Shown one piece after another: positions 4,891 through 38,661 of a DNA stretch of 43,522 nt (positions are counted from its first letter, which is position 1; every line of letters starts with the position of its first letter). The DNA comes from Burkholderiaceae bacterium (GTDB taxonomy: Bacteria > Pseudomonadota > Gammaproteobacteria > Burkholderiales > Burkholderiaceae_C), in assembly GCA_030654805.1 (NCBI GenBank), contig JAURWR010000071.1, positions 1-43,522 of the forward strand, in the 5' to 3' direction. The notes beneath the pieces were generated by a model, which saw only the letters and a program-made list of their open reading frames with translations, was not told the origin of the DNA and did no database searches. The position numbers and the translations under genes were made by a program.

Positions 4891-4902
4891 GGCAGCATGT
4901 TT

Positions 4903-4910
4903 TGATATCA
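4903..4910. promoter_or_regulatory. 8-bp palindrome between hlyD and hicA starts
   Basis: TGATATCA lies 7 bp before the hicA ATG, in the AT-rich 27-bp gap between the divergent hlyD and hicA genes. It could be part of a -10 element or a half of a HicB operator, since RHH-type HicB proteins bind short palindromes at their own promoter. Eight bases is too short to be convincing alone. Confidence 0.25.
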
Positions 4911-4917
4911 TTTGGAC

Positions 4918-5172: not shown

Positions 5173-5504
5173 ACACCATGACGTATGGCGGTTACAGCGC
5201 CCGAGTTGAGTTCGACGCTGAAGACCGCATCTTTGTCGGCCACATCGCGGGCATACGCGACATCGTGGGCTTTCACGGCACATCGGTCGATGAGCTGGAG
5301 ACGGCGTTCCATGAAGCGGTGGACGACTACCTGGCCGCGTGCAAGAAGCTCAAGCAGACCCCGGACAAGCCGTACTCGGGCCGCATCATGTTGCGGTTGC
5401 CACCGGAGCTGCACGCACGGGCCAGCGCGGCGGCGCAGGTTACCGGGATGAGCTTCAACCAGTGGGCGGCGCGTGCGCTGGAGCAGGCGGTGCGGGTGGA
5501 ATAG
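5169..5504 (+). CDS. hicB: HicB-family antitoxin with RHH DNA-binding C-terminus
   Basis: A 111-residue antitoxin. The N-terminal half has the degraded-RNase-H HicB fold (YGGYSARVEFDAEDRIFVGHI followed by GFHGTSVDELETAFHEAVDDYL) that masks HicA. The C-terminal half (SGRIMLRLPPELHARASAAA, SFNQWAARALEQAV) is a ribbon-helix-helix domain of the Arc/CopG type, which would autoregulate the operon. Its start overlaps hicA by four bases, consistent with translational coupling. Its stop lies only 14 bp from the stop of the convergent hlyB gene, so transcripts reading out of hlyB would be antisense to hicBA. Confidence 0.9.
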   Translation: MNTMTYGGYSARVEFDAEDRIFVGHIAGIRDIVGFHGTSVDELETAFHEAVDDYLAACKKLKQTPDKPYSGRIMLRLPPELHARASAAAQVTGMSFNQWAARALEQAVRVE

Positions 5505-5518
5505 CTGCCCGGGGGTCT

Positions 5519-7813
5519 TCATGGCGATGGTTGGGGGGTGCTTTTTGAGAGCCCGCCCTCACTCCCCGAAGGTGCGGGAGAAACACCCTCCTGCATCGAC
5601 CACAGATGCGCATACAGCCCCTGCGGCCGCGCCAGTAACTCGGCGTGCGAACCCATCTCGACCATGCGCCCCTTGTCCATCACGACGATGCGGTGGGCGT
5701 GGCGCACGGCGCTCAGGCGGTGGGCAATGATCAGCACCGTGCGGCTATGGCAGATGTGCGCCATGTTGCGCTGGATGATGGCTTCGCTCTCGTAGTCGAG
5801 CGCGCTGGTGGCTTCGTCGAAGATCAGGATGCGTGGCTGGTTGAACAGCGCGCGGGCGATCGCGATGCGCTGGCGCTGTCCGCCCGACAGGCTGGCGCCT
5901 TGCTCGCCGACCAGGGTGTCGTAGCCCTCGGGCAGCTCGCTGATGAAGTCGTGCGCGCCGGCCAGTTGTGCGGCACGCACCACCTGGTCGATCGGGGCGG
6001 CCGGGTCGACGATGGCGATGTTCTCGCGAACGCTGCGGTGGAACAGCAGGTTCTCCTGCAGCACCACGCCGACCTGGCGCCGCAGTTGCGCGGCATCGAC
6101 CAGCCCGATGTCGATGCCGTCGATCAGGAGGCGACCCTGCTCTGGCGCGTACAGCCGCTGTACCAGCTTGGTCAGCGTGCTCTTGCCCGAGCCGGATCGC
6201 CCGACGATGCCAATGACCTCGCCGGCGCGGATGGCCAGGCTCAGGCCTTGCAGCGCGGGTGCGGCTTCGGGCCGATACCGAAATGTCACCTGATCGAGCG
6301 TGATCTGGCCCTTGATCGGTGGCAACTGAGCGGCGTTGCTCGGCGGCACCTCGGTGCGTGCGTTCAGCACATCGCCGAGGCGTGCCATCGAGATGCCGGT
6401 CTGCTGGAAGTCGGTCCACATCTGTGCCATGCGCATGATGGGCTGGCTGACGCGTCCGGCGAACATGTTGAACGCGACGAACATGCCGACCGTGAGCTGC
6501 CCGTCCATCACCAGGTGCGCGCCGTACCAGAGCGTGGCGGCATTGACCAGCTTGCCGATCAGGCTGACGCCTTCGTGCGCGAAGCCGGCGAGCGTCTGCG
6601 TGCGGAAGCTGGCCGACACATAAGCCGCGAGCTGGCTGTCCCAGCGGCGCGCCATCGCTGGTTCGAGCGCGGTGGCCTTGACGGTCTGGATGCCGGTGAT
6701 GGTCTCGACCAGCAGCGACTGGTTCTCGGCGCCACGCGCGAACTTCTCGTTCAGGCGGACGCGCAGGACGGGCACCACCGCGAGGCTCAGGCCCAGGTAC
6801 AGCGGCAGTGAGATCAGCACGATCAAGGTCAGCGGCACGCTGTAGGCGAACATCACCGCGATGAAGACGACCGAGAACAGCACGTCGAGCACCAGCGTGA
6901 GCGCGTTGCCGGTCAGGAAGCTGCGGATGTTCTCCAGCTCGCGCACGCGGGCGACCGAATCGCCGACGCGGCGCGCCTGGAAGTAGGCCAGCGGCAGGTT
7001 CACCAGGTGGCGGAACAGCCGCGCGCCCAGCTCGACATCGATGCGGCTGGTGGTGTGGCTGAACACATAGCTGCGCAGCGCAGTGAGTGCGCTCTCGAAG
7101 ACGACCACGACGACCAGGCCGATGACCAGCACGTCGAGCGTCGTCAGGCCACGGTGCACCAGCACCTTGTCCATCACGACCTGGAAGAACAGCGGGCTGA
7201 CCAGCGCGAACAGCTGCAAAAACAGGCTGATCAGCATCACCTCACCGAACAGGCGGCGGTACTTGACCAGGCTGGGGATGAACCAGCTGAAGTCGAACTT
7301 CGCCAGCTCGCCGGCCAGCGAGGCGCGGCTGGCGATCAGGATCAGCTCGCCGGTCCATTGGGTGGCGAACACGTCCAGCGGTTCGATGGTCGGGCGGGCG
7401 CCATTCGTTTGCGCCGGGCCCGAGCCGGCCGGATCCTGGAACAGCACGCGCTGGCCGTCGCATTGAGCGAGTACGACGATGCGCGGCGGGCGGCTCGAAC
7501 CTTCAGCGTGCAGCACCGCCAAGGCGGGCAGTGCGGCGAGGTTCAGGCGGTCGAGGCGGGTGCGGCTGCGTTTGGCTTTGAGGCCGATGTGCTTTGCCGC
7601 GAGCAGGAGATCATTGATATCGGGGCGGTGGCTCGCCGGCCAACCGAGCTGGTGGGCCAGCGTGGCGGCATCGGCTGCGACGTGATGCAGCCGGGCGATC
7701 AGGCACAGCGCCTGCAAGTTCGAATCTGGCGCGGGGGCCGGCACCGGATCGACCTCGGAACTTGAAACGCGCCCACCCTCATTGGCCGATCGAGCGGCTT
7801 CTTGCAACCCCAT
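5519..7813 (-). CDS. HlyB-like type I secretion ABC transporter/ATPase
   Basis: A 764-residue peptide/protein exporter. Residues about 20-140 form a C39-like domain lacking the peptidase Cys motif ([14 protein letters not shown] replaces the DCGxxCL of active peptidases), which in HlyB-type proteins binds unfolded substrate rather than cutting a leader. Six predicted membrane helices follow (about 165-450), then the nucleotide-binding domain with Walker [10 protein letters not shown] near 537, signature LSGGQRQR near 640 and Walker [13 protein letters not shown] near 661. I chose ATG 7813 because GGGGGAGAAGGA precedes it at good spacing; the longer frame adds nine residues without a ribosome site. 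It is the first gene of the secretion locus, and its hlyD partner lies beyond the inverted hicAB pair. Substrate is most likely the RTX-like protein at the left edge. Confidence 0.93.
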
Positions 7814-7901
7814 TCCTTCTCCCCCGGTGGCGTTTGACAACGTCTTGTTACGAAGTCTCGGGAGGCCGACAGGGAGGCGTAACCCCCTGGGCAGGGGTGG
7901 G

Positions 7902-8291: not shown

Positions 8292-9404
8292 TCAATCGGG
8301 TCCGGAAGGGCCCTGTGGCGACGCTTCTACGCCTCCCTGTGGCAAGCACAGGTCCTCGAAAAGGCGCTCGATCCCAGCGACATCCAGGTCCCGGCCGATG
8401 AAGACGATGCGCGTGCTGCGGTCATCGTCGGTCCATGCCTGCAGCCATTGCAACGGATAGAACTTCTCGCGCACGGCGTGCACCACCAGCGGCCCCTGCG
8501 CCAGCACGTGCCGCGGCCGCGATGCGACATTGACGATGCCCTTGATGCGCAGAATGCGATCGCTCATGGCGTTGGTCACGCGGTTCAGGAACACGCCCAG
8601 GCCGACCAGGTCCACCGGGATGTCCGTGCGGATCACGTGCGTCGTGGGGCGTGGCCCGTGGTGCACGCCCGTGGCGGTGTCGGTGTCGGACGTGGCGCGC
8701 CTCATCGGCCGGCCGGCCATCAGCCACCCGCTCGCATCACCCGTTTTCGTCAGCGACCGGCCTGCCTCGAACAGCCCTCGGAGAAAGATCGTCGAGGCAT
8801 CCGCATCGCCCAGCGTGACTTGAATCTGCCGCGCATGGGGGTTGGCCTCGGACACGAGCGCTTCGGTACGCTGACGTTGTTCGGCCGTGGCCAGGTCGCC
8901 CTTGGTCAGGATCACCACATCCGCTATCTGGACCTGGCTCAGCGCCACGGCATCGTCGTGCAGTGTTCGCTCGAAATTCACCTGATCGACACAGGTCACC
9001 ACGGCATCCGGCGCGTAATGCTTGTGCATCATCGGGTTGGCCATCATCGTGTGCAGGATGGGCACCGGGTCGGCCAGTCCCGAGGTCTCGATGATCACGT
9101 GATCGAAGGCGGGGATTTCGCCCAGCTGCCGCTTCTCGTGAAGCTCGCGCAGCGTCATCGCCAGGTCCACACGCACTGCACAGCAGATGCAGCCCCCGCG
9201 CAACTGGACGATGTTCTCTGCCAATTGGGCCACCATCAGGTGGTCGATGCTGACCTCGCCGAACTCGTTGATGATCAGCGCGGTGTGCTGCAGCAACGGA
9301 TGCTCCAGCGCATGCTGAAGCAAGGTCGTCTTGCCGCTGCCCAGATGCCCGGTGAGCACGGTGACCGGGATCGGCAGCCGGCGGGTGGGCGGGGCGTCGG
9401 TCAC
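8292..9404 (-). CDS. COG0523/CobW-family GTP-dependent metallochaperone
   Basis: A 370-residue G3E GTPase. Walker A GHLGSGKTTL is at about 19-28, the family metal-binding motif GGCICC at 70-75, a Walker B-like region follows (VIIETSGLADP), the base-recognition motif is TKGD, and a C-terminal CobW_C domain begins near THVIRTD. These proteins use GTP to load Zn, Fe, Co or Ni into client enzymes. Translation starts at GTG 9404, overlapping the stop of the preceding gene (GTGA), so it belongs to the carboxylase operon. The small operon protein encoded at 14740-15093 has a four-Cys zinc-ribbon-like motif, and related acetophenone carboxylases contain zinc, so zinc delivery to this complex is the most economical role. 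This is inference; metal specificity cannot be read here. Confidence 0.88.
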   Translation of the reverse strand: MTDAPPTRRLPIPVTVLTGHLGSGKTTLLQHALEHPLLQHTALIINEFGEVSIDHLMVAQLAENIVQLRGGCICCAVRVDLAMTLRELHEKRQLGEIPAFDHVIIETSGLADPVPILHTMMANPMMHKHYAPDAVVTCVDQVNFERTLHDDAVALSQVQIADVVILTKGDLATAEQRQRTEALVSEANPHARQIQVTLGDADASTIFLRGLFEAGRSLTKTGDASGWLMAGRPMRRATSDTDTATGVHHGPRPTTHVIRTDIPVDLVGLGVFLNRVTNAMSDRILRIKGIVNVASRPRHVLAQGPLVVHAVREKFYPLQWLQAWTDDDRSTRIVFIGRDLDVAGIERLFEDLCLPQGGVEASPQGPSGPD

Positions 9405-10246
9405 CGAGGGGATCCGTGCAGGGCAGTCAGGTGCTCGGCGACCCGCTCGGGGATGGCGTCTCGCGGGATCTCGCCGTAGCGCATGCCCTGCCGCTGTGGT
9501 TGCAGGGCGGCCTGACTCCAGAAGTGGGCGCCGAGTCCCCCGGCGGCGTTCTCGATACCGCTCGCCTCCAGCGCCGATTCGGACCAGTTGCCGAGCAGCA
9601 CGGCATCGAATCCGCGGGTGTCGTTGAGTGGGCTGCCTTGCGGCGCAGCGTCGAGTTGCAGGGCCGTGCCCCAGCCGTAATACCGGGCCGACTTGAGCAG
9701 CGGCTCGCAGGCTTCCCGTTCGTCGTCCGACAGGCCCTCGGCTTCATCGCAGCGCAGCACCACCGCCGCAAACTTTCGCTCGCAGTGACTGCGCAGCACG
9801 GCAGTCAGCGCCGAGCCCACGTCATCGAGGTCATCGAAGCTGAACGGCGGTGTGCGCCCCACACGCCGCAGCACCTGCGACGGCGAGGGCAGGGCCATGA
9901 CCAGCATCGCCTGCGTGCCGACGCGGTGAAACAGCGCATCCATCACCTCGACCACGAAGCGCCGCTGTGCCCCCTGTTCGCTCCAGCGCGCCACGGCCTC
10001 GGCGAGGGACTCGCCAGCGAGCGACCGCCACGAAGCCTCTTCGAGCCAGCCGTCGAGGACCGGGATTGCCACGACGTCGCTGCGGACCAGCCGCTGGGCC
10101 TGGCCCAGGGTGTCCGCATAGCGGTGCGCGTTGGTGGTCCAGTCGGTCGGCTGACCGGCGAACACGGCGGCGGCATAGCGCTCGAAGTCCAGCCACAAGA
10201 GCGGGCGGTTCAAGCGGCTGGCATCGTCGAGAAACACAGAACTCAC
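9401..10246 (-). CDS. Acetophenone-carboxylase-type fifth subunit (Apc5-like)
   Basis: A 281-residue cytoplasmic protein (about 31 kDa) that I would not recognise by motif alone. The call rests on position and size: it is fifth in a run whose order and sizes match apc1-apc5 of Aromatoleum, where the 34-kDa epsilon subunit is needed for carboxylation but is loosely attached to the core. It starts with GTG 10246 after a GAGGTG ribosome site and its stop overlaps the cobW-like start. Unlike the other subunit genes it is separated from the upstream gene, by 75 bp containing a strong hairpin. The conserved-looking stretch SARYYGWGTALQLD and a C-terminal RYGEIPRDAIPERVAEHL may help family searches. 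Confidence 0.6.
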   Translation of the reverse strand: MSSVFLDDASRLNRPLLWLDFERYAAAVFAGQPTDWTTNAHRYADTLGQAQRLVRSDVVAIPVLDGWLEEASWRSLAGESLAEAVARWSEQGAQRRFVVEVMDALFHRVGTQAMLVMALPSPSQVLRRVGRTPPFSFDDLDDVGSALTAVLRSHCERKFAAVVLRCDEAEGLSDDEREACEPLLKSARYYGWGTALQLDAAPQGSPLNDTRGFDAVLLGNWSESALEASGIENAAGGLGAHFWSQAALQPQRQGMRYGEIPRDAIPERVAEHLTALHGSPR

Positions 10247-10289
10247 GGCACACCTCGAAGTCGGGAACGAGCAATCGGACCAGGGACAG

Positions 10290-10316
10290 GCGCTCCCGCG
10301 CGGTGGGCGGGAGCGC
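10290..10316 (-). promoter_or_regulatory. Intercistronic hairpin between HyuB-like and Apc5-like genes
   Basis: A perfect 10-bp stem (GCGCTCCCGC / GCGGGAGCGC) with a 7-nt loop lies in the only long gap of the carboxylase operon, starting 6 bp after the HyuB-like stop. There is no T-tract. It could stabilise the 3' end of the upstream message, act as a processing site, or partly terminate transcription, lowering expression of the last two genes relative to the core subunits. Confidence 0.55.
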
Positions 10317-10321
10317 TCGCA

Positions 10322-12553
10322 TCAACGCCTGATTGCAGCCAGTTGTGCCTCGAGCTGCGCGATGCGCACGTCCTTGGGGTCCGGCATCATCACACCGACG
10401 ATCGCGTCGGACGGGCAGGTGTCGGTGGGCGTGCCGCGATGGATGACGTGAGGATCCTTCCACGAGCCGTAGAAGGGCAGGTGCGCGGGAGGATGTTCGG
10501 TCTCCCAGCCCTTGACGAACTCAGCGTAGGGCTTGCCCAGCCTCTTGCGCTTGGCGCGCTCGGCTGCACGCGACGCTTTCGTGGCCTCGAGGTCGGCCGC
10601 CTTGGTGGTTTCGTCGATCACCACGTGGTAGATGTGCTCCACCGTGCGTTGGCTGATCAGGCCGTCCCGGTAGTCGTCCGCCACCATGGCGGGGTCGCGG
10701 TCCAGCACGTCACCGTAGCCGCCACCGGTGCCTTGCGTCAGCATGTAGAGCTCGCCGGTTTTTGCCCATTCCAGCTGCATGCCCATGTGGTGCGTGGTGT
10801 ACGTGGCGTTCTTGAACGGCTGCTCGTTCATGATCTCCTCCACCGAAAAGCGCAGCAGTTCGCGACGGTCCTTCATCTCGTCGAAGATGTTCACGCCCTT
10901 GACCTTGCACAGCGGGTAGGTGCCGGCGCCATAGCCGCCGAAGATGCCGTGGGTGCTCGGAAACTTCGAACCGATCGAGCAGGTCATGAAGCCCCAGGTG
11001 GCCGTGTCCTTGACGGTGGCGATCTGCTGGTAGCCGTGGCCTCCTCGGAACTTGCCGAATCCCTGGTTGTCGCGCATCACCCGGTTGGGCACGATCTTCA
11101 TGATCGGCACTTCTTCCTCGATCAACTCCTGTTCGCCGATGTCGGCCATGGGCGCGAAGATCGGTGCGATGGAGTGCTCGCCATCCCGCGTGGCGCGTGC
11201 GCCGCCGCCCATGCCGTTCAGGTCGGCGCACAGGTTGCCCACCAGCTCCTGGTGCTGCGTGACGCCACCGTAGATGAAGGTGACGATCATGTTGTACCAA
11301 CCCGAGACCACGTCGGTGGCCTTGAAGGTGGACGAATACAGCAGCTTCGGGACAGCCAGCTGCGTCACGGTGAAGCTGGGGAAGAAGGTCATCATGCTCT
11401 GCGCATTCGGTGCATTCACCGAGCAGTTCAGCGCCGAGTTCTCGTCGGTGAGCACCGTCATCGCTTCGAAGACCGCCTGGTTGCGCGGCAGGTCCGGCCA
11501 CACGAAAGTCAGGAACTCCTGCGCCAGCATGCCCTTGCAGGACGCCAGGATGGTGTTGTTGGCGCGGTTGGTGAATTCCGGTGCGGATCCGCGGAAGTCC
11601 AGGATCAGCTCGGCGTCCCGCTTGGTCATCTCCAGCCGCAGGCGCAGCAGGACGTTCTCGCGCAGGGTGCCGTCCGGGAAGACGTTCTGCCGGATGGTGC
11701 CGTCCGGCCAGTCGCGCAGTCGGCGGCGCACCTCGTCGGCGGTGCTGGTCAGCGTGCGGCGCAGCGTGGCCAGCACGGCGTCGATGCCGTATTCGGCGAT
11801 CGCCTCCTTGATGCGCGACTCCATGCGCATGGCGGCGTAGAGCTTCGACTTCATGCCTTCCAGTTGCAGCTTGGGCTCGCGCACCGAGTTCTGCAGGAAG
11901 GTCATGATGTCCTTGCGGAACGTGTAGTTCTCGCCGACCTTGAAGGGCGGCATCTTCAGCCCTTCGTCGTACGGCGACTCGGCCTTCGACGGCATGCCGC
12001 CCGGCTCGGTGGCGCCGTTCTCGCCCTCGTGCACCATCGCGCCGGTGAAGCAGACCAGCTTGCCCTCGTGGAAGACCGGCAGGATCAGGCTCTGGTCGGT
12101 GTTGTGGATGTTGCCGTAGCGCGCGTCGTTGTGCAGGAAGATGTCTCCCGGGCGCACGCCGACGGTGGGCTCCTTCACCCAGTACTTCAGGATGAATTTC
12201 ACCGGGTGCTGGGTCAGCACCGAAAACAGCAGCACGCCGCCGGCACTCGACAGTGCCAGGTCGCCGGATGCCGTCCACACGCCCGAGATCAGGTCGCCCC
12301 ACTTGGCACCCGGCGCCGCCCCCATCTGCTCGACCATGTCGAACGATTCGTTGCAGGCCGTTTGCAGTTTGTGGCGCACCAGGTTCATCTGGTCCGCGTC
12401 GTTGAATGCCGCCAGCGCCTTCGTCTCTTCGGGCGTCTCCGGTGCCAGCTTGTGGTTGCTCATGATCTCGGGATCGGGCCCGAGGAAAAGCACGTTCTCG
12501 TCCAGGAATTTCTGCAGGACGGACTTCTCTTGGTCATTCATCTTTTGTGTCAT
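10322..12553 (-). CDS. HyuB-like carboxylase subunit (Apc4-like)
   Basis: A 743-residue protein of the hydantoinase B / acetone carboxylase alpha family. Recognisable family segments include GDIFLHNDARYGNIHNTD, VCFTGAMVHEGENGATEPGG, LDFRGSAPEF and GGGARATRDGEHSIAP. In acetone and acetophenone carboxylases this subunit takes part in handling the phosphorylated carbonyl substrate and CO2 at the carboxylation site. I chose ATG 12553 because GAGGAG lies 6 bp before it; the longer frame runs back into the upstream gene. It begins 10 bp after the HyuA-like stop. In a two-gene hydantoinase it would hydrolyse a ring amide, but the accompanying small zinc subunit and second HyuA-like gene favour a carboxylase. 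The C-terminal 130 residues are Lys/Arg-rich and end in a short coiled coil (RIAQLEAQLAAI). Confidence 0.85.
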   Translation of the reverse strand: MTQKMNDQEKSVLQKFLDENVLFLGPDPEIMSNHKLAPETPEETKALAAFNDADQMNLVRHKLQTACNESFDMVEQMGAAPGAKWGDLISGVWTASGDLALSSAGGVLLFSVLTQHPVKFILKYWVKEPTVGVRPGDIFLHNDARYGNIHNTDQSLILPVFHEGKLVCFTGAMVHEGENGATEPGGMPSKAESPYDEGLKMPPFKVGENYTFRKDIMTFLQNSVREPKLQLEGMKSKLYAAMRMESRIKEAIAEYGIDAVLATLRRTLTSTADEVRRRLRDWPDGTIRQNVFPDGTLRENVLLRLRLEMTKRDAELILDFRGSAPEFTNRANNTILASCKGMLAQEFLTFVWPDLPRNQAVFEAMTVLTDENSALNCSVNAPNAQSMMTFFPSFTVTQLAVPKLLYSSTFKATDVVSGWYNMIVTFIYGGVTQHQELVGNLCADLNGMGGGARATRDGEHSIAPIFAPMADIGEQELIEEEVPIMKIVPNRVMRDNQGFGKFRGGHGYQQIATVKDTATWGFMTCSIGSKFPSTHGIFGGYGAGTYPLCKVKGVNIFDEMKDRRELLRFSVEEIMNEQPFKNATYTTHHMGMQLEWAKTGELYMLTQGTGGGYGDVLDRDPAMVADDYRDGLISQRTVEHIYHVVIDETTKAADLEATKASRAAERAKRKRLGKPYAEFVKGWETEHPPAHLPFYGSWKDPHVIHRGTPTDTCPSDAIVGVMMPDPKDVRIAQLEAQLAAIRR

Positions 12554-12563
12554 TTGCTGCTCC

Positions 12564-14738
12564 TCATGCAACCAGGGCATCGGTGATGGGCCGGGCGGAT
12601 CCGCCGGCAAGGGCTGCCGTGTGCTCCAGCCATGCGGCGCCGGAGGTGCCCATGGTGAGCTGCCAGCCCGGTTCGACCAGGAAGCTGGTGCGGGGCGACT
12701 CGACCAGTGCCGGTCCGTCCAGGGTGGTTCCTTCCGCCAGGGTGTGTGCGTCGTAGATGCGGGTCATGACCCCACCTTCCGTGCCCTGGAAATGGCACTC
12801 GCGTTCGCCGCGCGGCGTCGGTGGCGGCACCCCTTTCCTGGTGCTGGGCTTGAGCTCCAGGCGGTCGTGCTGCACGAACGAGACGACACGGATCACGTTG
12901 ATGCGCACGCCGGCCTCCGGCGCCTGACTGCCTTCGCCGAAACGCTGCGCGTAGTTGTGGCTGAACAGGTCGAGCAGCTCGATCACCTGCGTGGGTTTCT
13001 CCAGCCGTCGGAACGGGCTGACGACGGCGGTCTGCGCCAGCTGGTTGCCGTACCGCAGGTCCAGCTCGACCCGCACCTGGATGTCGGTCTCCTGGACGCC
13101 CTGGCGCTTCAGGTCTTCGCGCCCGCGCGCCTCGAGCGTGGCCACGGTGCTGTTGAACGACTCGAAATCGTCCAGGATCTGGCGCTTGTTGGCATCGAAA
13201 AGCATCTGGTAAACCGAGCTCTCGTGGATGTGCAGCTGGTCCATGTTGCCCGCGCCCAGCGCCGAGAACACGCAGCTGAACGGCGGGATCAGCACGCGGT
13301 TAATGCCGATCGCGCTGGAGAAGCCGCAGGCATGCATCGGGCCGCCGCCGCCGTAGGCCAGCAGCACGAAGTGCTTCGGGTTGTAGCCTTTGACGGCGAC
13401 CTCCTTGAAGATCGCCGCCGCCATGTTCGCGTCGACCTTGCGCTTGATGGCCTTGGCGGCATCGATCAGGCTCAGGCCCGACGGCTTGCAGATGTGCTCC
13501 TCGATCGCCCGCTCGGCCCGACGGCGGCTGAGTTCGATGGAACCGCCGGCGTAGTTCTTCTCGTCCAGGTAGCCCAGCACGAGGTTGGCGTCGGTGGTCG
13601 TCGGTAGCTTGCCGCCGCGGCCGTAACAGGCCGGTCCGGGGTCGGACCCCGCGCTTTGCGGGCCCACCTCGATGGCGTTCCACATCCGGTCGAAGCGTGC
13701 GATGGAGCCACCGCCCGCACCCAGCGTGTGCAGGTAGGTCATCGGCGTGCTGACCAGCCAGCGCTCGATGATCGGGTTGAAGTCGTAGAACTTCACGCCG
13801 TCGGCGGTGACCAGACCGATGTCGAAGCTGGTGCCGCCCATGTCGGTGGCAATCAGGTTGGGCTGCTTGAACTCTCTCGACAGGTAGTTGGTGGCTTCCA
13901 GACCCGCCACCGGTCCCGAGTGGATCGTCTGCAACGACGACGTCGAATTCATCTGCGCCATGCCCGAGGTGTTGTGCACCAGCAGCATGGGCTTCTTGTA
14001 GCCGGCCCGGCGCAACGCGATCTCCAGCGTCGACATGCCGTGGTACATCTGGTCGTGCAGAAAGGCGTCGATGATCGACGACATCGTTCTCGCGTACTCG
14101 CCCTTGCGGCCAGCCACGCGGTGCGACAGCACGATGGGCATCGAGCCCAGCTGGTGCGTGGGGTACTCCGACAGGATGATGCGCTCGACGGCCTTCTCGT
14201 TGGCCGGGTTGATCACCGAGTTCACCAGGCACACCACGAAGGCCTGCGCGCCTGCATCGACCAGTTTGCGGACCTGCTTGCGCACGTTGTCGTCGTCGAT
14301 CGTGAGCAGGATGTCGCCCTTGTAGTCCACCCGCTCGTCGATGCCGACGATGCGCGACACCGGCACCAGCATCGGCGGACGAGCGGCACCCGGCAGGTCG
14401 GCCTGCTGCGCCTCGGACAAGCCGTCGCCGTAGCCGCGTGCCCGCATCAGCACGGCGGTGGACTCGAATCCCGTGGTGGTCAGCAGGGCGACCTTCGGGC
14501 CCTTGCGCTGGATCAGCGCATTGGTGCCGAGCGTGGTGGCATAGCGCACCGCATCCACGCTGGCCAGCACCTCGCCGATGTCCTTGCCGATGTCGCGGCA
14601 AGCACCTTCCAATGCCTCCATGAAACCGGTGGCCAGGTTGTTGTGGGTCGTCAGGGCTTTCGACTCGACGTAGCGGCCGTCGTAGGCCAGGAAGCAGTCG
14701 GTGAACGTGCCCCCGATGTCAACACTCACGCGCCTCAT
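12564..14738 (-). CDS. HyuA-like ATP-dependent carboxylase subunit (Apc3-like)
   Basis: A 724-residue ASKHA-fold protein of the hydantoinase A / acetone carboxylase beta family. The phosphate-1 motif SVDIGGTFTDCF opens the protein; a second phosphate loop, IATDMGGTSFDIG, and an adenosine-type motif, HSGPVAGLEATNYL, follow; SAGSDPGPACYGRGG and LLAYGGGGPMHACG are further family hallmarks. Such subunits use ATP to activate the carbonyl substrate and/or bicarbonate by phosphorylation. ATG 14738 is chosen because AAGGAGGG precedes it at about 8 bp and it starts immediately at the family N-terminus; a longer frame adds seven residues. Only one base separates it from the stop of the small zinc-protein gene upstream. 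Substrate cannot be read from the sequence. Confidence 0.87.
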   Translation of the reverse strand: MRRVSVDIGGTFTDCFLAYDGRYVESKALTTHNNLATGFMEALEGACRDIGKDIGEVLASVDAVRYATTLGTNALIQRKGPKVALLTTTGFESTAVLMRARGYGDGLSEAQQADLPGAARPPMLVPVSRIVGIDERVDYKGDILLTIDDDNVRKQVRKLVDAGAQAFVVCLVNSVINPANEKAVERIILSEYPTHQLGSMPIVLSHRVAGRKGEYARTMSSIIDAFLHDQMYHGMSTLEIALRRAGYKKPMLLVHNTSGMAQMNSTSSLQTIHSGPVAGLEATNYLSREFKQPNLIATDMGGTSFDIGLVTADGVKFYDFNPIIERWLVSTPMTYLHTLGAGGGSIARFDRMWNAIEVGPQSAGSDPGPACYGRGGKLPTTTDANLVLGYLDEKNYAGGSIELSRRRAERAIEEHICKPSGLSLIDAAKAIKRKVDANMAAAIFKEVAVKGYNPKHFVLLAYGGGGPMHACGFSSAIGINRVLIPPFSCVFSALGAGNMDQLHIHESSVYQMLFDANKRQILDDFESFNSTVATLEARGREDLKRQGVQETDIQVRVELDLRYGNQLAQTAVVSPFRRLEKPTQVIELLDLFSHNYAQRFGEGSQAPEAGVRINVIRVVSFVQHDRLELKPSTRKGVPPPTPRGERECHFQGTEGGVMTRIYDAHTLAEGTTLDGPALVESPRTSFLVEPGWQLTMGTSGAAWLEHTAALAGGSARPITDALVA

Positions 14739-14739
14739 G

Positions 14740-15093
14740 TCACTGGCCCTCCTTGGCAAGGTGTCGTCTCTTCAGGCTGTCGATGTCGAGTTCGATGTCG
14801 TGCGTCAGCGGGTGGCCCGGCGGCAGGTACTCGTTCTCGATCTGCGTGCAGCAGGTGGGGCAATAGAACTCGACGATGCGGCACCACGTCGGATCGGGTG
14901 CGTAGGTGAACTCGTACTTCTTCTCGTCGAGGATGGGCGCGTGGATCTCGCGCGGATCGCGGTCATAGACCAGCAGGCCGGTCTTGTAGTTCTCGCGCGC
15001 CGAGGCGATGTCGTGCCCGCAGCAGCGGCAATGCCAGCGTTCGGAGGTCAGATCGATTTCCAGGTACTCGGTGATGGCGACTCGTGCGGTCAT
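14740..15093 (-). CDS. Small zinc-ribbon carboxylase subunit (Apc2-like, gamma)
   Basis: A 117-residue protein with two cysteine pairs: WHCRCCGHD near the N-terminus and YCPTCC about 60 residues later, a zinc-ribbon-like arrangement. Small zinc-containing gamma subunits of about 15-20 kDa are diagnostic of acetone and acetophenone carboxylases and absent from plain hydantoinases, so this gene is the main reason for calling the operon a ketone carboxylase. A size of about 13.5 kDa fits Apc2 (15 kDa) better than AcxC (about 19 kDa). The start is ATG 15093, with GAGG 7 bp upstream; a TTG five codons earlier lies inside the preceding gene. One base separates it from the genes on either side. Confidence 0.8.
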   Translation of the reverse strand: MTARVAITEYLEIDLTSERWHCRCCGHDIASARENYKTGLLVYDRDPREIHAPILDEKKYEFTYAPDPTWCRIVEFYCPTCCTQIENEYLPPGHPLTHDIELDIDSLKRRHLAKEGQ

Positions 15094-15094
15094 G

Positions 15095-17026
15095 TCAGGC
15101 CTCTTCAATGATCAGGTCGTGGTTGTCGGACACGCGCAGCGACCAGCCGCGGTCCACCAGGCAGGTGAGGTAGCTGCTGCGCAGCAGGGCGGGGCCGGTC
15201 GCGTGTTGGCCGGGTTCGAGGGAGTCGGCGTCGATCACCGGTATGCGATCGCCATCGCTCCCGCCGTACAGCACCTGGGCCGATCCCGAGACCACGGCCG
15301 GCGTGTGTCGCGCGGCACGGTCTTCGATCAACTTGAACGACGGCAACGCGTACGACGCGGTCAACACCAGCCGGGCATCCGGGCTGGGCTGCAAGGCTTG
15401 CAGCGCCGGCTCGTCCAGGGCCGTCTGCTGGACGCCCGCGTCGGTGTCCTTCCACAACGCGAAGTCGTAACGGCACTTCGCGGGGTCCACGCCTTCGCCG
15501 GACATGTCGTTCTGCGCTCTGGAGTGCATGCGCTCGCGCGCTGCGGCGATGTCGGCGACCGACGCGCCTGCCAGCGACGTCTGGTACTGGTGCGCCAGCT
15601 CGGAGAAGCCGATGCCGTAGGCGCTGAACACCGCCGCCATCTGCGGGACGATGATGCGGCGCACGCCGGCTTCCCGCGCGATGCCCGGGGCGATCATGGG
15701 CCCGCCTCCACCAAAGGCCAGCAGGATGGCCTGGTCGGCGCTCTGTCCGGCAGCCGACAACGTCTTGACCAGCACAGCAGCGACTTCGGCCTCGAACGCG
15801 CGGATGGCGCGCTCGGTGGCGTCGGCCAGCGCGATATTCAGCGGGCCGGCGATGTTCGCCTGGATCGCTGTGGCTGCACGGTCGCGGTCCAGCTTCAGTT
15901 CGCCGCCGAGGTATTTCTCGCCATCGAGGACACCGGCCAGCAGCAGCGCGTCGGTCAACGTGGCATGGGTGCCGCCACGGCCGAAGCACGCCGGGCCGGG
16001 TACCGAGCCCACGCTCTCCGGTCCGATCGTGATCTGGCCGTCGCGGACACCCATGACCGAGCTGCCGCCCAGTCCGAAGCTCTGCAGTTCGGGCATGGCG
16101 AACGAGGTGCTGCCGGCCTCGACGTGCCCGTAGGCGTTGAGTCTCACCTGGCCGTCGACCACCACCGCGACGTCGGTGGTGGTGCCTCCGATGTCCATCG
16201 CGATCAGTGTGGACGCACCGTAGAGGCGCGCATAGGCCAGCGCCCCTTCCAGCCCGCCGCGCGGACCCGATCCCCAGGTCTTGATGGCCGTGGTCTTGGC
16301 CACGCGCGCCGAGTTGCCGTCGTTGCGATAGATCAGCAGCGGACTGGCCAGGTGATGCTGCTTGCAGACGTTCTCTGCGCCGTAAAGGAAGTGCTCCATG
16401 CCCGGGTGCAGGTAGGAGTTGAGCAGTGCCGAGAACACGCGGCGGGCATGGTCGTCGTCGCTGACGAGCTCGTGCGACAGCAGGAACGGAACCGCGCCCA
16501 GCAGGTGGCGGGGATAGCGGTCGAGCAGTTCTTCCTTCACGCGCGCTTCTGCTTCCGCGCTGCGCAGCGCCACCACCAGGCGCCGCGCGCCCTTGGCCAG
16601 CAGATCGTTGACTGCGGCGGTGAGCTCGCTCGAGTCGATCGCCTCGCCCGGCCGCACCGTGATGCCGACAGGCGCAATGGGCACCATCGAGGCCCACAGA
16701 CTGTCGCCCCGCATGGCCTCGGCCAGCCCGTAGACCGAATCCTCTTCGCCCTTCTCGACCAGCAGCGAGACCGGGGTGCCCTTGCGCTCGACCACCGCAT
16801 TGGTGCCCGACGTGGTGGAGTAGCGGATGTAGTCGATGTCCCTTACCAGGCGTGACAGATCCTCGCCACCGTAGAGCTCGCGGGATACGCGGGTGAGGGC
16901 GCCGACGAAGCACTGCGTCAGATCGTGCGGCGTGGTGGGGGACTTCGCATGCACCACCTGCGAGTCGGAATGGACGCACACGTCGGTGAACGTGCCGCCG
17001 TTGTCGATATTCACGAGTAAACCCAT
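15095..17026 (-). CDS. Second HyuA-like carboxylase subunit (Apc1-like)
   Basis: A 643-residue (about 68 kDa) ASKHA-fold protein that opens the operon. Motifs are NIDNGGTFTDVCV at the N-terminus, YSTTSGTNAVVERKG, a second phosphate loop AMDIGGTTTDVAVV, TWGSGPRGGLEGA as the adenosine motif, and LLAFGGGGPMIAPG. It is a paralogue of the HyuA-like protein two genes downstream but about 80 residues shorter, as Apc1 is relative to Apc3. In acetophenone carboxylase the two HyuA-like subunits are thought to account for the two ATP consumed per carboxylation. ATG 17026 is preceded by AAAGGA at 8 bp; an upstream in-frame start at 17113 has no family sequence. It is the first gene, so the operon promoter should lie in 17027-17300. 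Confidence 0.85.
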   Translation of the reverse strand: MGLLVNIDNGGTFTDVCVHSDSQVVHAKSPTTPHDLTQCFVGALTRVSRELYGGEDLSRLVRDIDYIRYSTTSGTNAVVERKGTPVSLLVEKGEEDSVYGLAEAMRGDSLWASMVPIAPVGITVRPGEAIDSSELTAAVNDLLAKGARRLVVALRSAEAEARVKEELLDRYPRHLLGAVPFLLSHELVSDDDHARRVFSALLNSYLHPGMEHFLYGAENVCKQHHLASPLLIYRNDGNSARVAKTTAIKTWGSGPRGGLEGALAYARLYGASTLIAMDIGGTTTDVAVVVDGQVRLNAYGHVEAGSTSFAMPELQSFGLGGSSVMGVRDGQITIGPESVGSVPGPACFGRGGTHATLTDALLLAGVLDGEKYLGGELKLDRDRAATAIQANIAGPLNIALADATERAIRAFEAEVAAVLVKTLSAAGQSADQAILLAFGGGGPMIAPGIAREAGVRRIIVPQMAAVFSAYGIGFSELAHQYQTSLAGASVADIAAARERMHSRAQNDMSGEGVDPAKCRYDFALWKDTDAGVQQTALDEPALQALQPSPDARLVLTASYALPSFKLIEDRAARHTPAVVSGSAQVLYGGSDGDRIPVIDADSLEPGQHATGPALLRSSYLTCLVDRGWSLRVSDNHDLIIEEA

Positions 17027-17252: not shown

Positions 17253-17280
17253 CAGCAGGCCAGGCAAGCCTGGCCTGCTG
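17253..17280. terminator. Strong hairpin downstream of secreted-protein gene
   Basis: A perfect 13-bp inverted repeat (CAGCAGGCCAGGC, AA, then GCCTGGCCTGCTG) lies 21 bp past the stop of the minus-strand gene at 17301-17816. On the plus side it is followed by TGTTTAAA, on the minus side by no T-run. It most likely ends the transcript of that gene and insulates the carboxylase operon promoter. Confidence 0.6.
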
Positions 17281-17300
17281 TGTTTAAAGCCCGACAGGGA

Positions 17301-17816
17301 TCAGGGCACGTTGACGAAATAGCCCGAAATCATGACCAGGGCACCGCCCGAAGCCGTGTCGCCTCCCAGCGCCTGCATCGTGGCCCGGGGCGATTCACCC
17401 ACGCCGAAATAGGCCAGCACCTCGTTGTTGATGAAGTAGCGCGTGCCCAGATTGCCGTTCGGCCCGCGCACGCCGGTGAAGGGAACGGTCGCGTAAGCCG
17501 ACCCGCCAAAGCTGGACGAGAGGAAGCCATTCGGGGGCGTGCCGGCGGCCGTGTCGATGTAGCCGCTGATGTGCGTGACCACCAGGCGCTTGCCGGCAGG
17601 CACCGTGGCAAAGTTGACGCTGCACACCGTGGTCCCGCGGCAGGCAAGGTCGCTCAGCGTCTCCTGGTACGGATTGCGTCCCGGCTCGTCGACCGACTGC
17701 ACCAGCGCGGCACGGGTTTGCGCGGCCGCCGGCAGCGCGCTCAGGGCACCGACCGCCGCGACCGCCAGCGCCACTGCGGCCGGCACGGTTTGATACGCCA
17801 TCGACTTCGTCTTCAT
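17301..17816 (-). CDS. Putative secreted protein (171 aa)
   Basis: A 171-residue protein with a Sec signal peptide: MKTKSMAYQ, a hydrophobic Ala/Val core, and a likely cut after ALPAAAQ near residue 33. The mature part is Gly/Ala/Thr/Asn-rich with two Cys residues close together (LACRGTTVCSV) that may form a disulphide, and several predicted beta strands ending in MISGYFVNVP. I do not recognise the family. ATG 17816 is preferred because GGAG lies 7 bp upstream; an ATG two codons earlier sits too close to that site. It is monocistronic, with a strong hairpin after it. Confidence 0.65.
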   Translation of the reverse strand: MKTKSMAYQTVPAAVALAVAAVGALSALPAAAQTRAALVQSVDEPGRNPYQETLSDLACRGTTVCSVNFATVPAGKRLVVTHISGYIDTAAGTPPNGFLSSSFGGSAYATVPFTGVRGPNGNLGTRYFINNEVLAYFGVGESPRATMQALGGDTASGGALVMISGYFVNVP

Positions 17817-18050
17817 TGTCATTCTCCGTTGGGGGTGGGGTTGGGCCTGGGGATCGGTGCACGATCGCCGCATGGGTGACATGCGAAGCAGCCCGTGTGC
17901 GTGCCCGTCTGATTCTCTGGACGCCCGGGTAGAGCGTCAACGGCGGCCCCTCCTCATTTGAGGGGGTCGCTTCGAAGATCGACAGCAGAAAAACAGCGGC
18001 TGCCGGACCGGAACCATCCACCGCAGCCCGGGTCCGCATCGATCGGCTCA

Positions 18051-18070
18051 TGTGGTTTTGGGCGACCACA
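18051..18070. promoter_or_regulatory. Inverted repeat upstream of uspA-like gene
   Basis: TGTGGT-N8-ACCACA has perfect 6-bp arms and a centre-to-centre spacing suited to a dimeric regulator. It ends 28 bp before the preferred start of the universal stress gene. No regulator can be named. Confidence 0.35.
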
Positions 18071-18098
18071 TTCGATGAATCAACCCTCCGGAAACCCC

Positions 18099-18521
18099 AT
18101 GAACATCCTGCTCGCCGCCGATGGCAGCCCTTACGCCAAGCGCATGCTCGCCTACGTCGCCGCGCACGACGAATGGCTGGGCTCGCTGCATCGCTACGTG
18201 GTCGTGACGGCGGTGCCCGCGATCCCGCCGCGGGCTGCCGCAGTGCTCGACCGCGAACTGGTCAAGGGCTACTACCGCGACGAGGCCGAGAAGGTCTTCA
18301 AGCCCATCCGCGCGTTCTTCAAGCAACGCGGCATCGAGGCGGCGTTCGTCTCGAAGGTCGGCGTGGCCGCCGATGTGATCGTCAAGCAGGCGACCAGCGG
18401 CCCGTTCGATCTGCTGATGATGGGTTCGCACGGCCACGGCAGCCTGGCCAGCGTCGTCATGGGCTCGGTCGCGACCAAGGTGCTGGCCAATTGCAAGGTG
18501 CCGGTGCTGCTGGTGCGCTGA
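18099..18521 (+). CDS. Universal stress protein, UspA family
   Basis: A 140-residue UspA-fold protein beginning MNILLAADGSPYAKRML, the normal family N-terminus. The C-terminal nucleotide-binding signature is present: DLLMMGSHGHGSLASVVMGS, followed by VLANCKVPVLLVR, matching G-2X-G-9X-G(S/T), so it should bind ATP. Such proteins help survival under stress and stasis, though their exact biochemical role varies. ATG 18099 matches the domain boundary; an in-frame ATG at 18075 would add eight residues and cannot be excluded because neither has a strong ribosome site. It is a single-gene unit flanked by about 280-bp non-coding gaps on both sides. Confidence 0.9.
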   Translation: MNILLAADGSPYAKRMLAYVAAHDEWLGSLHRYVVVTAVPAIPPRAAAVLDRELVKGYYRDEAEKVFKPIRAFFKQRGIEAAFVSKVGVAADVIVKQATSGPFDLLMMGSHGHGSLASVVMGSVATKVLANCKVPVLLVR

Positions 18522-18799
18522 ACAACGGTTTGATCAAGCGCGGCCCGGATGCCGCAGCGGGTACGCACCGAGCGTGACGATGCACAGGAACAAGCCCCGT
18601 GCGGTGGCTCTGCCGGGGCGCCGAGATGACCTGTCGAGCTTGCGCGACTGGGAGATCGCCGCTCTCCAGTGGACGCGGGCATCCCGGTCTTCGGGGTGTA
18701 GGCAGCTCTCGTTCGCACGCTTCTAGATCGGACCGGGGGGCGCCCCTGATCGGGACTGGCCTTGCTCAAGTCGTGCGCTTCAGTGCCGATACCCCAGAG

Positions 18800-19687
18800 A
18801 TGGACAGTCCTCGCCTGCCTCTCGCCCCCAAGGCCCCGTTGCGCCGACGCGCCCACCCGAGCGCTCGCAGCCGATGGGCGGGCTGCGCGATCGCACTGAT
18901 GGCCGTCCTGGGGCACGCCCATGCCGGCGTGCTGACGATCCCTGGCGCCGGCCCGCCGGAGCCAGGCTTGCGTGCGCTGGCAGTCGAGTTCGCCAAGACG
19001 CATACCGGCATGGCCGTCGAGGTGCCGCCCAGCATCGGCATCGCCGGCGGCTTGCGCGTGATCCAAGCCAAGGAAGCACCGATCGTGCGGCTGGCGCGTC
19101 GCCTGAGCGAAGAGGAACTGAGTCGCTTCGGGCTGAAGCAACTCGTCTACGGCGCCGACGCGGTGGTGTTCGCCACGGGCCGCGATGTGTCAATCAGCGA
19201 CGTCACCGAGGGGCAACTGCTGTCGCTTTTCAGCGGCAGCAAGACGGATTGGTCCGAGCTGGGCGCCACGCGGGGGCCGGTGCTGGTGTTCTACCGCGAG
19301 CCCAGCGAGGTGGCGCACCAGGCCATCAAGCAGCACCTCCCGCAGTTCGCCGGCCTGACCTTCGCCGCCTCGGCCAAGCTGGCCAACTCGGACACCGCCA
19401 TGCGTGACGGCCTGGCCAAGTACCGCACGTCCATCGGCTGGACCACGTTGTCGGCAGTCAGCGCCGGGAGCGAACGCCTGAAGAGCCTCTCCGTCAACGG
19501 GGTGCAGGCCAGCGCCGCAGCGGTCGCCAGCGGCCTGTATCGCATGCGGGTCGAGCATGTGCTCGTCTACCGCGAGAGCGCCCTGACAGAGGAGGGCCGC
19601 CGATTCCTGGGCTTCGTCGGCTCCGCGCGCGGCTCGCGCGCACTTCGGCAGCTCGACGTGGTGCCGCTGCTGGCGGCCAGTCGCTGA
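18800..19687 (+). CDS. PstS-like periplasmic substrate-binding protein
   Basis: A 295-residue exported protein. The N-terminus is basic (RRRAHPSARSR) followed by a hydrophobic stretch and a likely cleavage after LGHAHA near residue 42. The mature part has the type-2 periplasmic-binding fold of PstS-like proteins: LTIPGAGPPEPGLRALAVEF, then PPSIGIAGGLRVIQAKEAPI, YGADAVVFAT, and an EEL/LFSG motif where phosphate-binding relatives have ITxxQLxxIFSG. No ABC permease or ATPase genes are adjacent; instead a membrane diguanylate cyclase starts 10 bp downstream. It may therefore act as a ligand sensor for that cyclase rather than in transport. The start is uncertain because no good ribosome site is seen. 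Confidence 0.75.
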   Translation: MDSPRLPLAPKAPLRRRAHPSARSRWAGCAIALMAVLGHAHAGVLTIPGAGPPEPGLRALAVEFAKTHTGMAVEVPPSIGIAGGLRVIQAKEAPIVRLARRLSEEELSRFGLKQLVYGADAVVFATGRDVSISDVTEGQLLSLFSGSKTDWSELGATRGPVLVFYREPSEVAHQAIKQHLPQFAGLTFAASAKLANSDTAMRDGLAKYRTSIGWTTLSAVSAGSERLKSLSVNGVQASAAAVASGLYRMRVEHVLVYRESALTEEGRRFLGFVGSARGSRALRQLDVVPLLAASR

Positions 19688-19697
19688 GGATCGTCCT

Positions 19698-21413
19698 GTG
19701 CTGACGTCCGAGCAGGACCCACCGACCCGTCACGACGCGATCGAGCCTTCAGCGACGACGGCGCGAACCTGGTGGCGGCGTCCGTTCGACCACCTGTCGA
19801 TCGGCGTGCAGGTGTTCGTCTTCGTCGGCGTGCTGGCCGCTGGGGTCAGCGCATTGAGCTACGAGTCCTACGTCCGCTCGGCGCAGCATTTGATCCGCAG
19901 CGCGCAGAGCGATCGCTTGGCCGGCTCGGCCCAGGTTGCGTTGGCCCGCATCGATGCCGAGTCGCGCGTTCTGATGCACACCGCACGCTCGTTGGCCCGG
20001 CATCCTCGCTTGCAGGAATTCCTGGGCGGCCAGACGCCGGTCTCCGGGGCGGCCGTCCGCGTCGAGATGGAGCGCATGTTCGACAGCGCTGGTGTTTCGG
20101 CGCTCGAGCTGATCGATGCGCAGCGCGAACCGGTGGTTCATCTCGATGCGCCGGGAGATGTCTCCGCTGCGACTCCTGCCTGGGGAATCGAGGAGGCCTT
20201 GGCCGGTACGGCCTTGACGCAGACCAGCAAGGAGACCGGCGGCGGGCTGATGCTGCGCGCCCTGGTGCCCGTGCGCGCCCAGCGCGACGACTCGGTGCTG
20301 GGTGTCGTGGCGGCGGCGACCCGTTTCGACGATGCCTTCGCGCGCCGAATCGGCCAGGAAGGCGCGCTTGAGCTGGCGATCGCGACCCCCTTGGGGCTGG
20401 TCGCCCGCTCGTCGCCGCGCCTGTCGGTCGATCCCGCGGTGCACCGCGCATTCGTCGAGCGATGCCTGTTCGAGCGCGTCCCGGTGCTGGCATTCGATCT
20501 GGCTGCAGGGGATCTGCGCCAGTACGTGCCGCTCGAACTCGGCGACGAGGTGTTCGTGCTCATCATGCAAGGCGACGCCGCAGCGGCGCAGGCCCAGGTT
20601 CTCGACGCGGCGCGCGAAGCCCTTCGCTCGTCGGTCTTGATGCTGGGCGCTGCCATGGCCCTCGCCTGCTTCTTCGCGATGCATCTGGGGCGCCGACTGA
20701 AGCATGTCCGCGCGCAGGCGGAAGCCCTGGCCCGCGATGTCACCGGGTCCGAGCACGCGCTCGACCATCTGGCAGACGGCTTGGACACACAACCCGTGCG
20801 CAGCGAACTGGTGGTGCTGGAGAAGGTCTTCACGGCGACGTCGAAGGCGGTGTCGCGTCACCACGACGCGATTCGCCAAGCCAAGGAAATGGCCGAACAC
20901 GCCGCCAACTACGACGCCCTGACCGGGCTGCCCAACCGCGCCTTCCTGATGAAGGAGATCGCGCGTCACCTGCACAGCCATCCCGACGAGGAGTGGGCGC
21001 TGCTCTTCCTGGATCTCGATGGCTTCAAGCGGGTGAACGACAAGCTTGGCCACGACGTGGGAGATGCCTTGCTGAGCCAGGCGGCTGTTCGTCTGATGAA
21101 GATCATGGGCAGCCGCGAGTCGGTGGCGCGCCTCGGTGGCGACGAGTTCGTGCTGATCGCGCGCCAAACCGGTCAGCTGTCCGCGCCCGTCTTGCTGGCG
21201 CAACAGTTGATCGACTCGCTCGAGCAGCCCTTCCTGGTCGATGCCCGTCATCTGATCAACGTTTCCGCGTCGGTTGGAATCGCCTGGTTCCCGCACCACG
21301 GATGTGACGCGAGCACGTTGCTCAAGAGCGCCGACTTGGCCATGTACGAGGCGAAGGGCGCCGGCAGGCGATCGGTTCGCACCTACCAGCCAACGGCCAC
21401 ATCGGCCTCCTGA
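19698..21413 (+). CDS. Membrane sensor diguanylate cyclase (GGDEF)
   Basis: A 571-residue protein starting at GTG 19698. It has one membrane helix at about 34-54, a periplasmic Cache-like sensor region (about 55-310), a second helix at about 312-332, a HAMP-like linker with a coiled coil, and a C-terminal GGDEF domain. LTGLPNRAFL begins the cyclase domain and the active-site loop GGDEF is at 480-484 with DLDGFKRVND upstream, so it should make c-di-GMP from two GTP. The usual inhibitory RxxD site is broken: the sequence reads RESVARLGGDEF, two residues shorter than the common form, implying loss of product inhibition at that site. No EAL domain follows. It is co-transcribed with the binding protein upstream (10-bp gap). 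Confidence 0.92.
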   Translation: MLTSEQDPPTRHDAIEPSATTARTWWRRPFDHLSIGVQVFVFVGVLAAGVSALSYESYVRSAQHLIRSAQSDRLAGSAQVALARIDAESRVLMHTARSLARHPRLQEFLGGQTPVSGAAVRVEMERMFDSAGVSALELIDAQREPVVHLDAPGDVSAATPAWGIEEALAGTALTQTSKETGGGLMLRALVPVRAQRDDSVLGVVAAATRFDDAFARRIGQEGALELAIATPLGLVARSSPRLSVDPAVHRAFVERCLFERVPVLAFDLAAGDLRQYVPLELGDEVFVLIMQGDAAAAQAQVLDAAREALRSSVLMLGAAMALACFFAMHLGRRLKHVRAQAEALARDVTGSEHALDHLADGLDTQPVRSELVVLEKVFTATSKAVSRHHDAIRQAKEMAEHAANYDALTGLPNRAFLMKEIARHLHSHPDEEWALLFLDLDGFKRVNDKLGHDVGDALLSQAAVRLMKIMGSRESVARLGGDEFVLIARQTGQLSAPVLLAQQLIDSLEQPFLVDARHLINVSASVGIAWFPHHGCDASTLLKSADLAMYEAKGAGRRSVRTYQPTATSAS

Positions 21414-38632: not shown

Positions 38633-38661
38633 GAAGTCGTGCCTTGAAGAATTTGCGGGGT

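Follow-up and report, generated by a model that had tools for sequence, protein, structure and literature searches.

A predicted five-subunit ketone carboxylase from a Burkholderiaceae bacterium, probably a deep branch of the acetophenone carboxylase class, with a recurrent COG0523 GTPase partner

The acetophenone carboxylase (Apc) of Aromatoleum aromaticum EbN1, ApcABCDE, has been described structurally for both its core (5L9W) and its epsilon subunit (9FOU). The defining reaction is the carboxylation of acetophenone with conversion of two ATP to two ADP, and EbN1 Apc is reported to hydrolyse ATP in an uncoupled way when given either substrate alone. Three types of gene cluster are distinguished in the excerpted text of PMC5214803, namely apcABCD(E) for Apc, acxABC for acetone carboxylase (Acx) and hydAB, with alpha and beta genes only, for hydantoinase, and some Apc-type clusters are reported there to have no epsilon gene. 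AcxABC (5SVB/5M45) has homologous alpha, beta and gamma subunits and is likewise ATP-dependent and biotin-free. The hydroxyphenylethanone carboxylases Hpe and Xcc also carboxylate an aryl methyl ketone ahead of CoA ligation, but they are biotin-dependent and described as non-homologous to Apc (PMC9618137, excerpt). Here, we describe a six-gene set on the minus strand at positions 8292-17026 of the window, that is, of the whole 43,522-nucleotide stretch analysed, which is the entire contig C39 of a 3.87-Mb Burkholderiaceae genome. Our results make it likely that five of the genes encode an apparently complete five-subunit ketone carboxylase forming a deep branch of the Apc class. The class itself is already known; what appears to be new is a second branch of ketone carboxylases of the Apc type, recurrently but not universally partnered by a COG0523 GTPase.

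The genes follow one another as alpha' (15095-17026), gamma (14740-15093), alpha (12564-14738), beta (10322-12553), an epsilon-position gene (9401-10246) and the COG0523 gene (8292-9404), separated by 1, 1, 10, 75 and -4 bases, the last value being a 4-base overlap. Their products have 643, 117, 724, 743, 281 and 370 aa (67.8, 13.7, 78.5, 82.7, 30.8 and 40.4 kDa). A preliminary description of this DNA had given the six genes with their order, near-gapless spacing and final overlap and the sizes of the first five products, and all open reading frames (ORFs) were located as it described them. The set may well be co-transcribed, and the operon probably starts between position 17026 and a hairpin at 17257-17285, seen on sequence inspection between a 193-aa gene and alpha', with a terminator-like stem at 17261-17277; terminator-like sites in the region number 5, against 4.6 expected from shuffles.

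Gene content and subunit homology both point to the Apc class. The profile searches suggested in the preliminary description gave the ApcA, ApcB, ApcC and ApcD models as the best NCBIfam matches of the four core subunits, and in the PDB the top match of all four is 5L9W (E 2.4e-99 for alpha' with 5L9W_b, 8.8e-156 for alpha with 5L9W_B, 5e-84 for beta with 5L9W_A). The core subunits are 28-57% identical by blastp to those of an EbN1-type apc reference locus (L111, from genome G255), whose own ApcD and ApcE score above the cut-offs. Like EbN1 Apc, the operon combines the same subunit set and gene order with two kinase-type subunits, a Cys4 gamma, an Asp-His-Asp-His beta site, a probable remote epsilon and a CoA ligase in the module. 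Related loci were collected by scanning a genome collection with the beta alignment, which gave 107 relatives; the best 80 were kept, so the sample is biased towards near relatives. The order alpha'-gamma-alpha-beta-epsilon is found in all 73 of the 80 loci that have the five genes.

The ApcA-like alpha' carries the ATP motifs IDNGGTFTD, DIGGT and GSVPGP, and both ASKHA kinase subunits of the window have intact kinase sites. When relatives shorter than 600 aa are set aside, no motif is missing from more than 1 of 77 alpha or more than 3 of 70 alpha' sequences. At the fingerprint position of alpha (consensus R/KERiDsxG) the ApcC-like alpha of the window reads DERVDYKG, a relaxed form; the relaxed pattern xERxDxxG occurs in 69/77 alpha and 0/70 alpha' sequences of the relatives. 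In a tree of 25 alpha and alpha' rows (8 of the 80 loci, the window and 8 others), the window alpha' is monophyletic with EbN1-type ApcA (support 100/99), and all 10 alpha' rows fall on one side. The ApcD-like beta subunit has a predicted metal site, D87-H150-D153-H175, whose residues align with D65/H123/D126/H148 of the EbN1-type sequence; D87 is kept in 79 of the 80 loci (the remaining one is truncated) and H150, D153 and H175 in all 80.

An Acx variant would explain why the ApcB-like gamma falls in PF08882 (E 1.9e-41), a family named for the acetone carboxylase gamma subunit. This seems very improbable, since gene order and subunit number differ, Acx having three subunits. The window gamma is the short form, without the N-terminal extension of about 50 aa seen in the longer Acx gamma, and its C22, C25, C78 and C81 are conserved in all 75 related gammas found. 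The first beta ligand is Asp, as in Apc, versus Glu86 in the two Acx sequences aligned. The alpha and beta trees also place Acx on distinct branches: in the beta tree (41 rows, from 24 of the 80 loci, the window and 16 others) Acx is separate with 100/100 support, while the window type forms a deep branch of its own that groups weakly with Apc (84/62). Moreover, the same genome has a separate acxABC set, on contig C27, whose beta lies inside the Acx branch.

The Pfam matches of the operon proteins (Hydantoinase_A twice, Acetone_carb_G, Hydantoinase_B, and CobW with CobW_C) include, for alpha and beta, families common to hydantoinases and oxoprolinases. They would also suit an ATP-dependent lactamase or hydantoinase-like hydrolase, or an enzyme acting on another carbonyl, instead of a carboxylase. 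We regard this as improbable, although less so than an Acx variant. Hydantoinases have alpha and beta genes only in the scheme cited above, whereas here gamma, alpha' and epsilon are held in order in every full-set locus, and genes for CoA ligase, CoA transferase or thiolase lie near many of the loci; a hydrolase-only identity is not favoured because of these neighbours. The hydantoinase and Acx identities were both dropped, with gene content and trees against them.

Some results weigh against placing the operon in the Apc class. Every core subunit falls widely short of its equivalog cut-off, with 368 of 1250 bits for alpha' (NF042960), 166 of 250 for gamma (NF042974), 539 of 1500 for alpha (NF042975) and 322 of 1500 for beta (NF042976), so the operon is not filed as acetophenone carboxylase proper and its substrate may differ from acetophenone. 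For acetophenone as the actual substrate there is no support beyond class likeness. Furthermore, the window beta is longer (743 aa) than that of the EbN1-type locus (684 aa), the Acx beta of its own genome having 774 aa. Apc beta subunits are said to be about 50 aa shorter than Acx beta, but since PMC5214803, in the part consulted, calls this distinction approximate, beta length is not treated as class-defining. Membership of the Apc class, rather than Acx or hydantoinase, had been proposed earlier and is supported by gene order, the alpha/alpha' tree, the metal-ligand signature and a decoy-controlled remote match of the fifth protein to ApcE.

This fifth protein, of 281 aa, is probably a remote homologue of ApcE. 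Family members occur in 78 of the 80 related loci, on two Rhodococcus plasmids and on one haloarchaeal plasmid. Unlike EbN1 ApcE, the window protein is missed by ordinary searches: it has no match in Pfam or NCBIfam, NF042977 included, and plain sequence comparison of its family with ApcE detected no relation. A three-sequence ApcE profile was made by adding an ApcE-like protein from genome G360, together with decoy controls. The group-I epsilon profile matched it over 244 columns with a score of 33.8 (E 5e-4, hhalign), and 0 of 50 decoy families with similarly thin profiles reached that score against the same query (maximum 15.9). The all-epsilon profile A4 scored 26.2 against ApcE, above the maxima of 18.3 in 60 column shuffles and 20.5 in 50 decoys, and 22 deeper decoy profiles reached at most 20.3 against the ApcE profile; the decoys were ORF families surrounding related loci, some of them possibly spurious. 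On the other side, the hhalign probability of the match is just 30%, a thinner ApcE profile of two sequences gave a negative result, and pairwise shuffles of 76 sequences gave a weak mean z of 1.0. Individual plasmid epsilons found nothing with the ApcE profile (scores 12-17).

Besides 9FOU, the ApcE profile has one match in the PDB, the methyltransferase 4ay7 (E 0.0077), which we take to have the URO-D fold. In a search of 398 genomes the ApcE profile gave four weak and partial matches. An ApcE-like protein at locus L191 passes the Pfam URO-D threshold (24.7 against 23.9 bits), a model matched neither by ApcE itself nor by the window epsilon family. A PDB sequence search with epsilon gave 23 matches. 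Twenty-two of them are TAL-effector repeats with no stretch passing alone and were rejected as composition artefacts; the other is an aldolase at E 0.49.

Within the COG0523 (CobW-type G3E) GTPases, Nha3 serves iron nitrile hydratase, ZigA is associated with zinc and CobW with cobalt. The window protein, a putative metal insertase, shares with them the GTPase (PF02492) and CobW_C (PF07683) domains and the CxCC motif (GGCICC in the window); it differs in that its gene partner is a predicted ketone carboxylase. Its closest solved structure is YjiA (1nij, E 6.6e-42). It misses the cut-offs of ZigA (132/600), CobW (140/332) and PRK11537, and the Nha3 model is not among its NCBIfam matches. A COG0523 gene lies within the fetched flanks of 41 of the 80 related loci (20 of the 34 with both flanks complete), in three arrangements: directly 3' of epsilon on the same strand in 17, further downstream in 10 and on the opposite strand in 14. 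The GCxCC motif is present in all 40 of these 41 proteins that are long enough for testing. By comparison, none of 20 acetone carboxylase loci has a COG0523 gene within about 9 kb on each side (15 of the 20 come from one genus), and the contrast of 41/80 with 0/20 gives a Fisher p of about 6e-6 without correction for relatedness. In a COG0523 tree of 60 rows, the linked proteins from the two carboxylase groups share a single clade (99/99), and 13 of the 18 paralogues fall outside it. The tree includes two linked copies from whole genomes and omits the linked but short (<300 aa) proteins of L063 and L078, the fragment L139 and a paralogue of genome G252 (C31:235953), which was replaced by a neighbour's ORF.

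This recurrent linkage is consistent with the COG0523 GTPase loading the metal of the carboxylase, probably at the beta site, a proposal that we hold to be evenly balanced. The same carboxylase could instead carry the GTPase as a general zinc-homeostasis passenger with no special client in the operon, a reading that is credible at somewhat less than even weight. COG0523 proteins are common, with 1-6 matches per genome in ten genomes, and 39 of the 80 loci show no such gene in the flanks that were fetched; for 14 of the 39, both 10-kb flanks are complete. Locus L050 is scored as lacking one, although a COG0523 gene lies some 14 kb away from beta. In 19 genomes with the five-gene set and no COG0523 gene nearby, 13 have a match elsewhere and 6 have none at 1e-20. 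The passenger reading fits less well with the absence of the gene from Acx loci, with a pair kept together in three different arrangements, with the single clade of linked proteins and with the missed ZigA and CobW cut-offs.

Other observations also count against metal loading by the GTPase. Five of the 18 unlinked paralogues nest within the linked clade, where they adjoin other genes, three of them lying beside a spoT-like gene as judged by eye; COG0523 is absent within 10 kb in four of the five plasmid records examined of the ten found; and all four seeds of the locus search had a linked COG0523 gene, so that the sample is possibly biased. The EbN1-type apc locus has no COG0523 gene either, which bears out the earlier remark that the CobW partner distinguishes this operon from that of Aromatoleum. 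That the EbN1-type genome might keep a COG0523 protein for Apc was considered and rejected, its sole match being about 24 kb from apcE, outside the linked clade and on a long branch. In addition, acetone carboxylases need no chaperone for loading their Mn or Fe (PMC10865871, excerpt). As the link is not universal, the GTPase would assist in certain lineages or conditions without being strictly required, or would be replaced by another protein elsewhere. The preliminary description had suggested a dedicated supply of zinc or another metal; the COG0523 link, recurrent though not universal, speaks for a dedicated metal supply.

We know of no earlier carboxylase clients of COG0523 proteins. No titles or abstracts joining COG0523 or CobW with (acetone or ketone) carboxylase or hydantoinase were found, though a publication making the link may exist; one paper mentions both, but in separate places. 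The words "carboxylase" and "hydantoin" are absent from the main texts of Haas 2009 (PMC2770081) and PMC9164220 (word search and excerpts). COG0523 GTPases are widespread, yet only a few of their clients are known. PMC9164220, a 2022 review, indicates in its excerpted text that many of these GTPases are uncharacterised and their clients unknown, and names gene clusters as possible predictors of clients. Here, a large metalloenzyme candidate recurs beside one COG0523 subfamily, also in named species that can be cultured, among them Azotobacter vinelandii (L052), and such recurrence makes the client hypothesis directly testable. It is also relevant to the question of why enzymes of the Apc type should require help with their metal, in contrast to the unaided loading of acetone carboxylases, and to what the little-understood epsilon subunit does.

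If the analogy with EbN1 Apc holds, alpha would phosphorylate the enol form of the ketone and alpha' would phosphorylate bicarbonate. The core would consist of beta and gamma and contain a divalent-metal site at D87-H150-D153-H175 and a structural zinc ribbon, and epsilon would be required for coupling the two half-reactions. The overall enzyme would then be an ATP-dependent, biotin-independent ketone carboxylase yielding a beta-keto acid, with the COG0523 GTPase supplying its metal; it would probably allow the bacterium to feed on the ketone. A more specific and tentative model, which as a whole is rather unlikely, holds both that the COG0523 subfamily is a dedicated GTP-driven insertase filling the Asp-His-Asp-His beta site of this second five-subunit branch, and that epsilon is a URO-D-fold bridge between the two kinase sites, maybe hosting or channelling the CO2 step.

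The gene neighbourhood suggests what may follow carboxylation. Window neighbours were found by tblastn with the genes flanking related loci, after which starts and families were checked. On the plus strand, divergent to the operon, lie a thiolase-domain protein (22170-23336; 91% identity to the thiolase of locus L014; NF005704, 502.7 bits, cut-off 412) and an AMP-forming acyl-CoA ligase (23353-24891; 83% identity to L014; NF004837, 411 bits, under the cut-off of 476), with starts 5.1 and 6.3 kb from alpha'. The ligase is a candidate for activating the beta-keto acid, and the thiolase, a proposed beta-ketothiolase, for cleaving the product to acyl-CoA and acetyl-CoA, which suggests, from these neighbour genes, a route from ketone through beta-keto acid and beta-ketoacyl-CoA to acyl-CoA and acetyl-CoA. 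The earlier statement that no CoA ligase is adjacent was thus misleading. The ligase of the window is FadD-like, versus a PaaK-like gene after apcE in L111, and the thiolase beside it, like the COG0523 partner, sets the module apart from EbN1 Apc.

Downstream of the ligase is a MalT-like, LuxR-family ATP-dependent regulator (24923-27781, plus strand) with MalT-like TPR and GerE domains (NF003420, 374 bits, under the cut-off of 537). It is 88% identical to the gene upstream of the related operon in L014, 71% in L066 and L080, 49% in L072 and 39% in L015, and is probably the regulator of the carboxylase module, whereas EbN1 Apc is controlled by two-component systems (PMC4729919, excerpt). A 201-aa protein with no assigned role (21491-22096, minus strand) has 80% identity to the product of L014 4741-5352. 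In L014, the nearest relative, from the Burkholderiales metagenome-assembled genome (MAG) PBB1, the operon follows directly on genes for the regulator, the ligase, the thiolase and a 203-aa protein, so that a single small gene separates thiolase and ligase from it. The window keeps these genes, but here the small gene is set apart from the operon by four extra ones (17301-21413): a 193-aa ORF (17301-17882, minus strand), the gene at 18050-18521, and those of a PBP-like and a GGDEF protein.

Similar functions recur around the 80 related loci, where sigma-54 activators are found near 38, thiolases near 23, AMP-forming CoA ligases near 20 and CoA-transferase A and B subunits near 11 and 10, with each neighbour family named from one representative. 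Some loci also have an outer-membrane and transport cassette (MMPL, DUF1302, DUF1329, YCF48). A scan of 69 of the 80 loci for sigma-54 elements 5' of alpha' found perfect elements in 19 and at least 9 of 10 matches in 35, and none in the window. On plasmid pBB1 of C. necator N-1, a protein recognised by eye as acetoacetyl-CoA-synthetase-like follows epsilon, and a plasmid of the haloarchaeon Halorientalis marina (L231) has all five genes in order, together with a thiolase and a pair of AMP-binding ligases. The type is uncommon: in a class sample of 369 genomes, 6, the present one counted, have a beta with 47% or higher identity. Four annotated plasmid records give the genes the labels hydantoinase/oxoprolinase, acetone carboxylase gamma and hypothetical protein; with such labels, this kind of ketone route is probably under-annotated in Proteobacteria, Rhodococcus and haloarchaea.

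Several further loci deserve mention. In the Alphaproteobacteria L035, L037, L048, L077, L071, L076, L089 and L228, genes for a sigma-54 factor and for a sigma-54 activator lie close to the COG0523 gene in the vicinity of the carboxylase genes, which suggests a dedicated sigma-54; the factor is annotated as such in L228 and was identified by eye elsewhere. Genome G103 has two six-gene copies (L009 and L010), one per group, each with its own COG0523 gene. In a MAG labelled Stygiobacter (Ignavibacteriota; L036), beta and COG0523 nest with Acidocella, which points to recent transfer or a mis-binned contig. The group-I cluster of L022, from a record titled Klebsiella pneumoniae MAG, resembles those of uncultured Gammaproteobacteria, and the label may be wrong.

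Elsewhere in the window, a type I secretion-like pair lies downstream of the operon on the minus strand, composed of a peptidase-C39-type ABC transporter (5519-7840) and an HlyD-type adaptor (3469-5283). On the plus strand, a radical SAM protein (29479-30633) is close to a nitroreductase-family protein (31435-32124), and an 884-aa pentapeptide-repeat protein is encoded at 36038-38692 on the minus strand.

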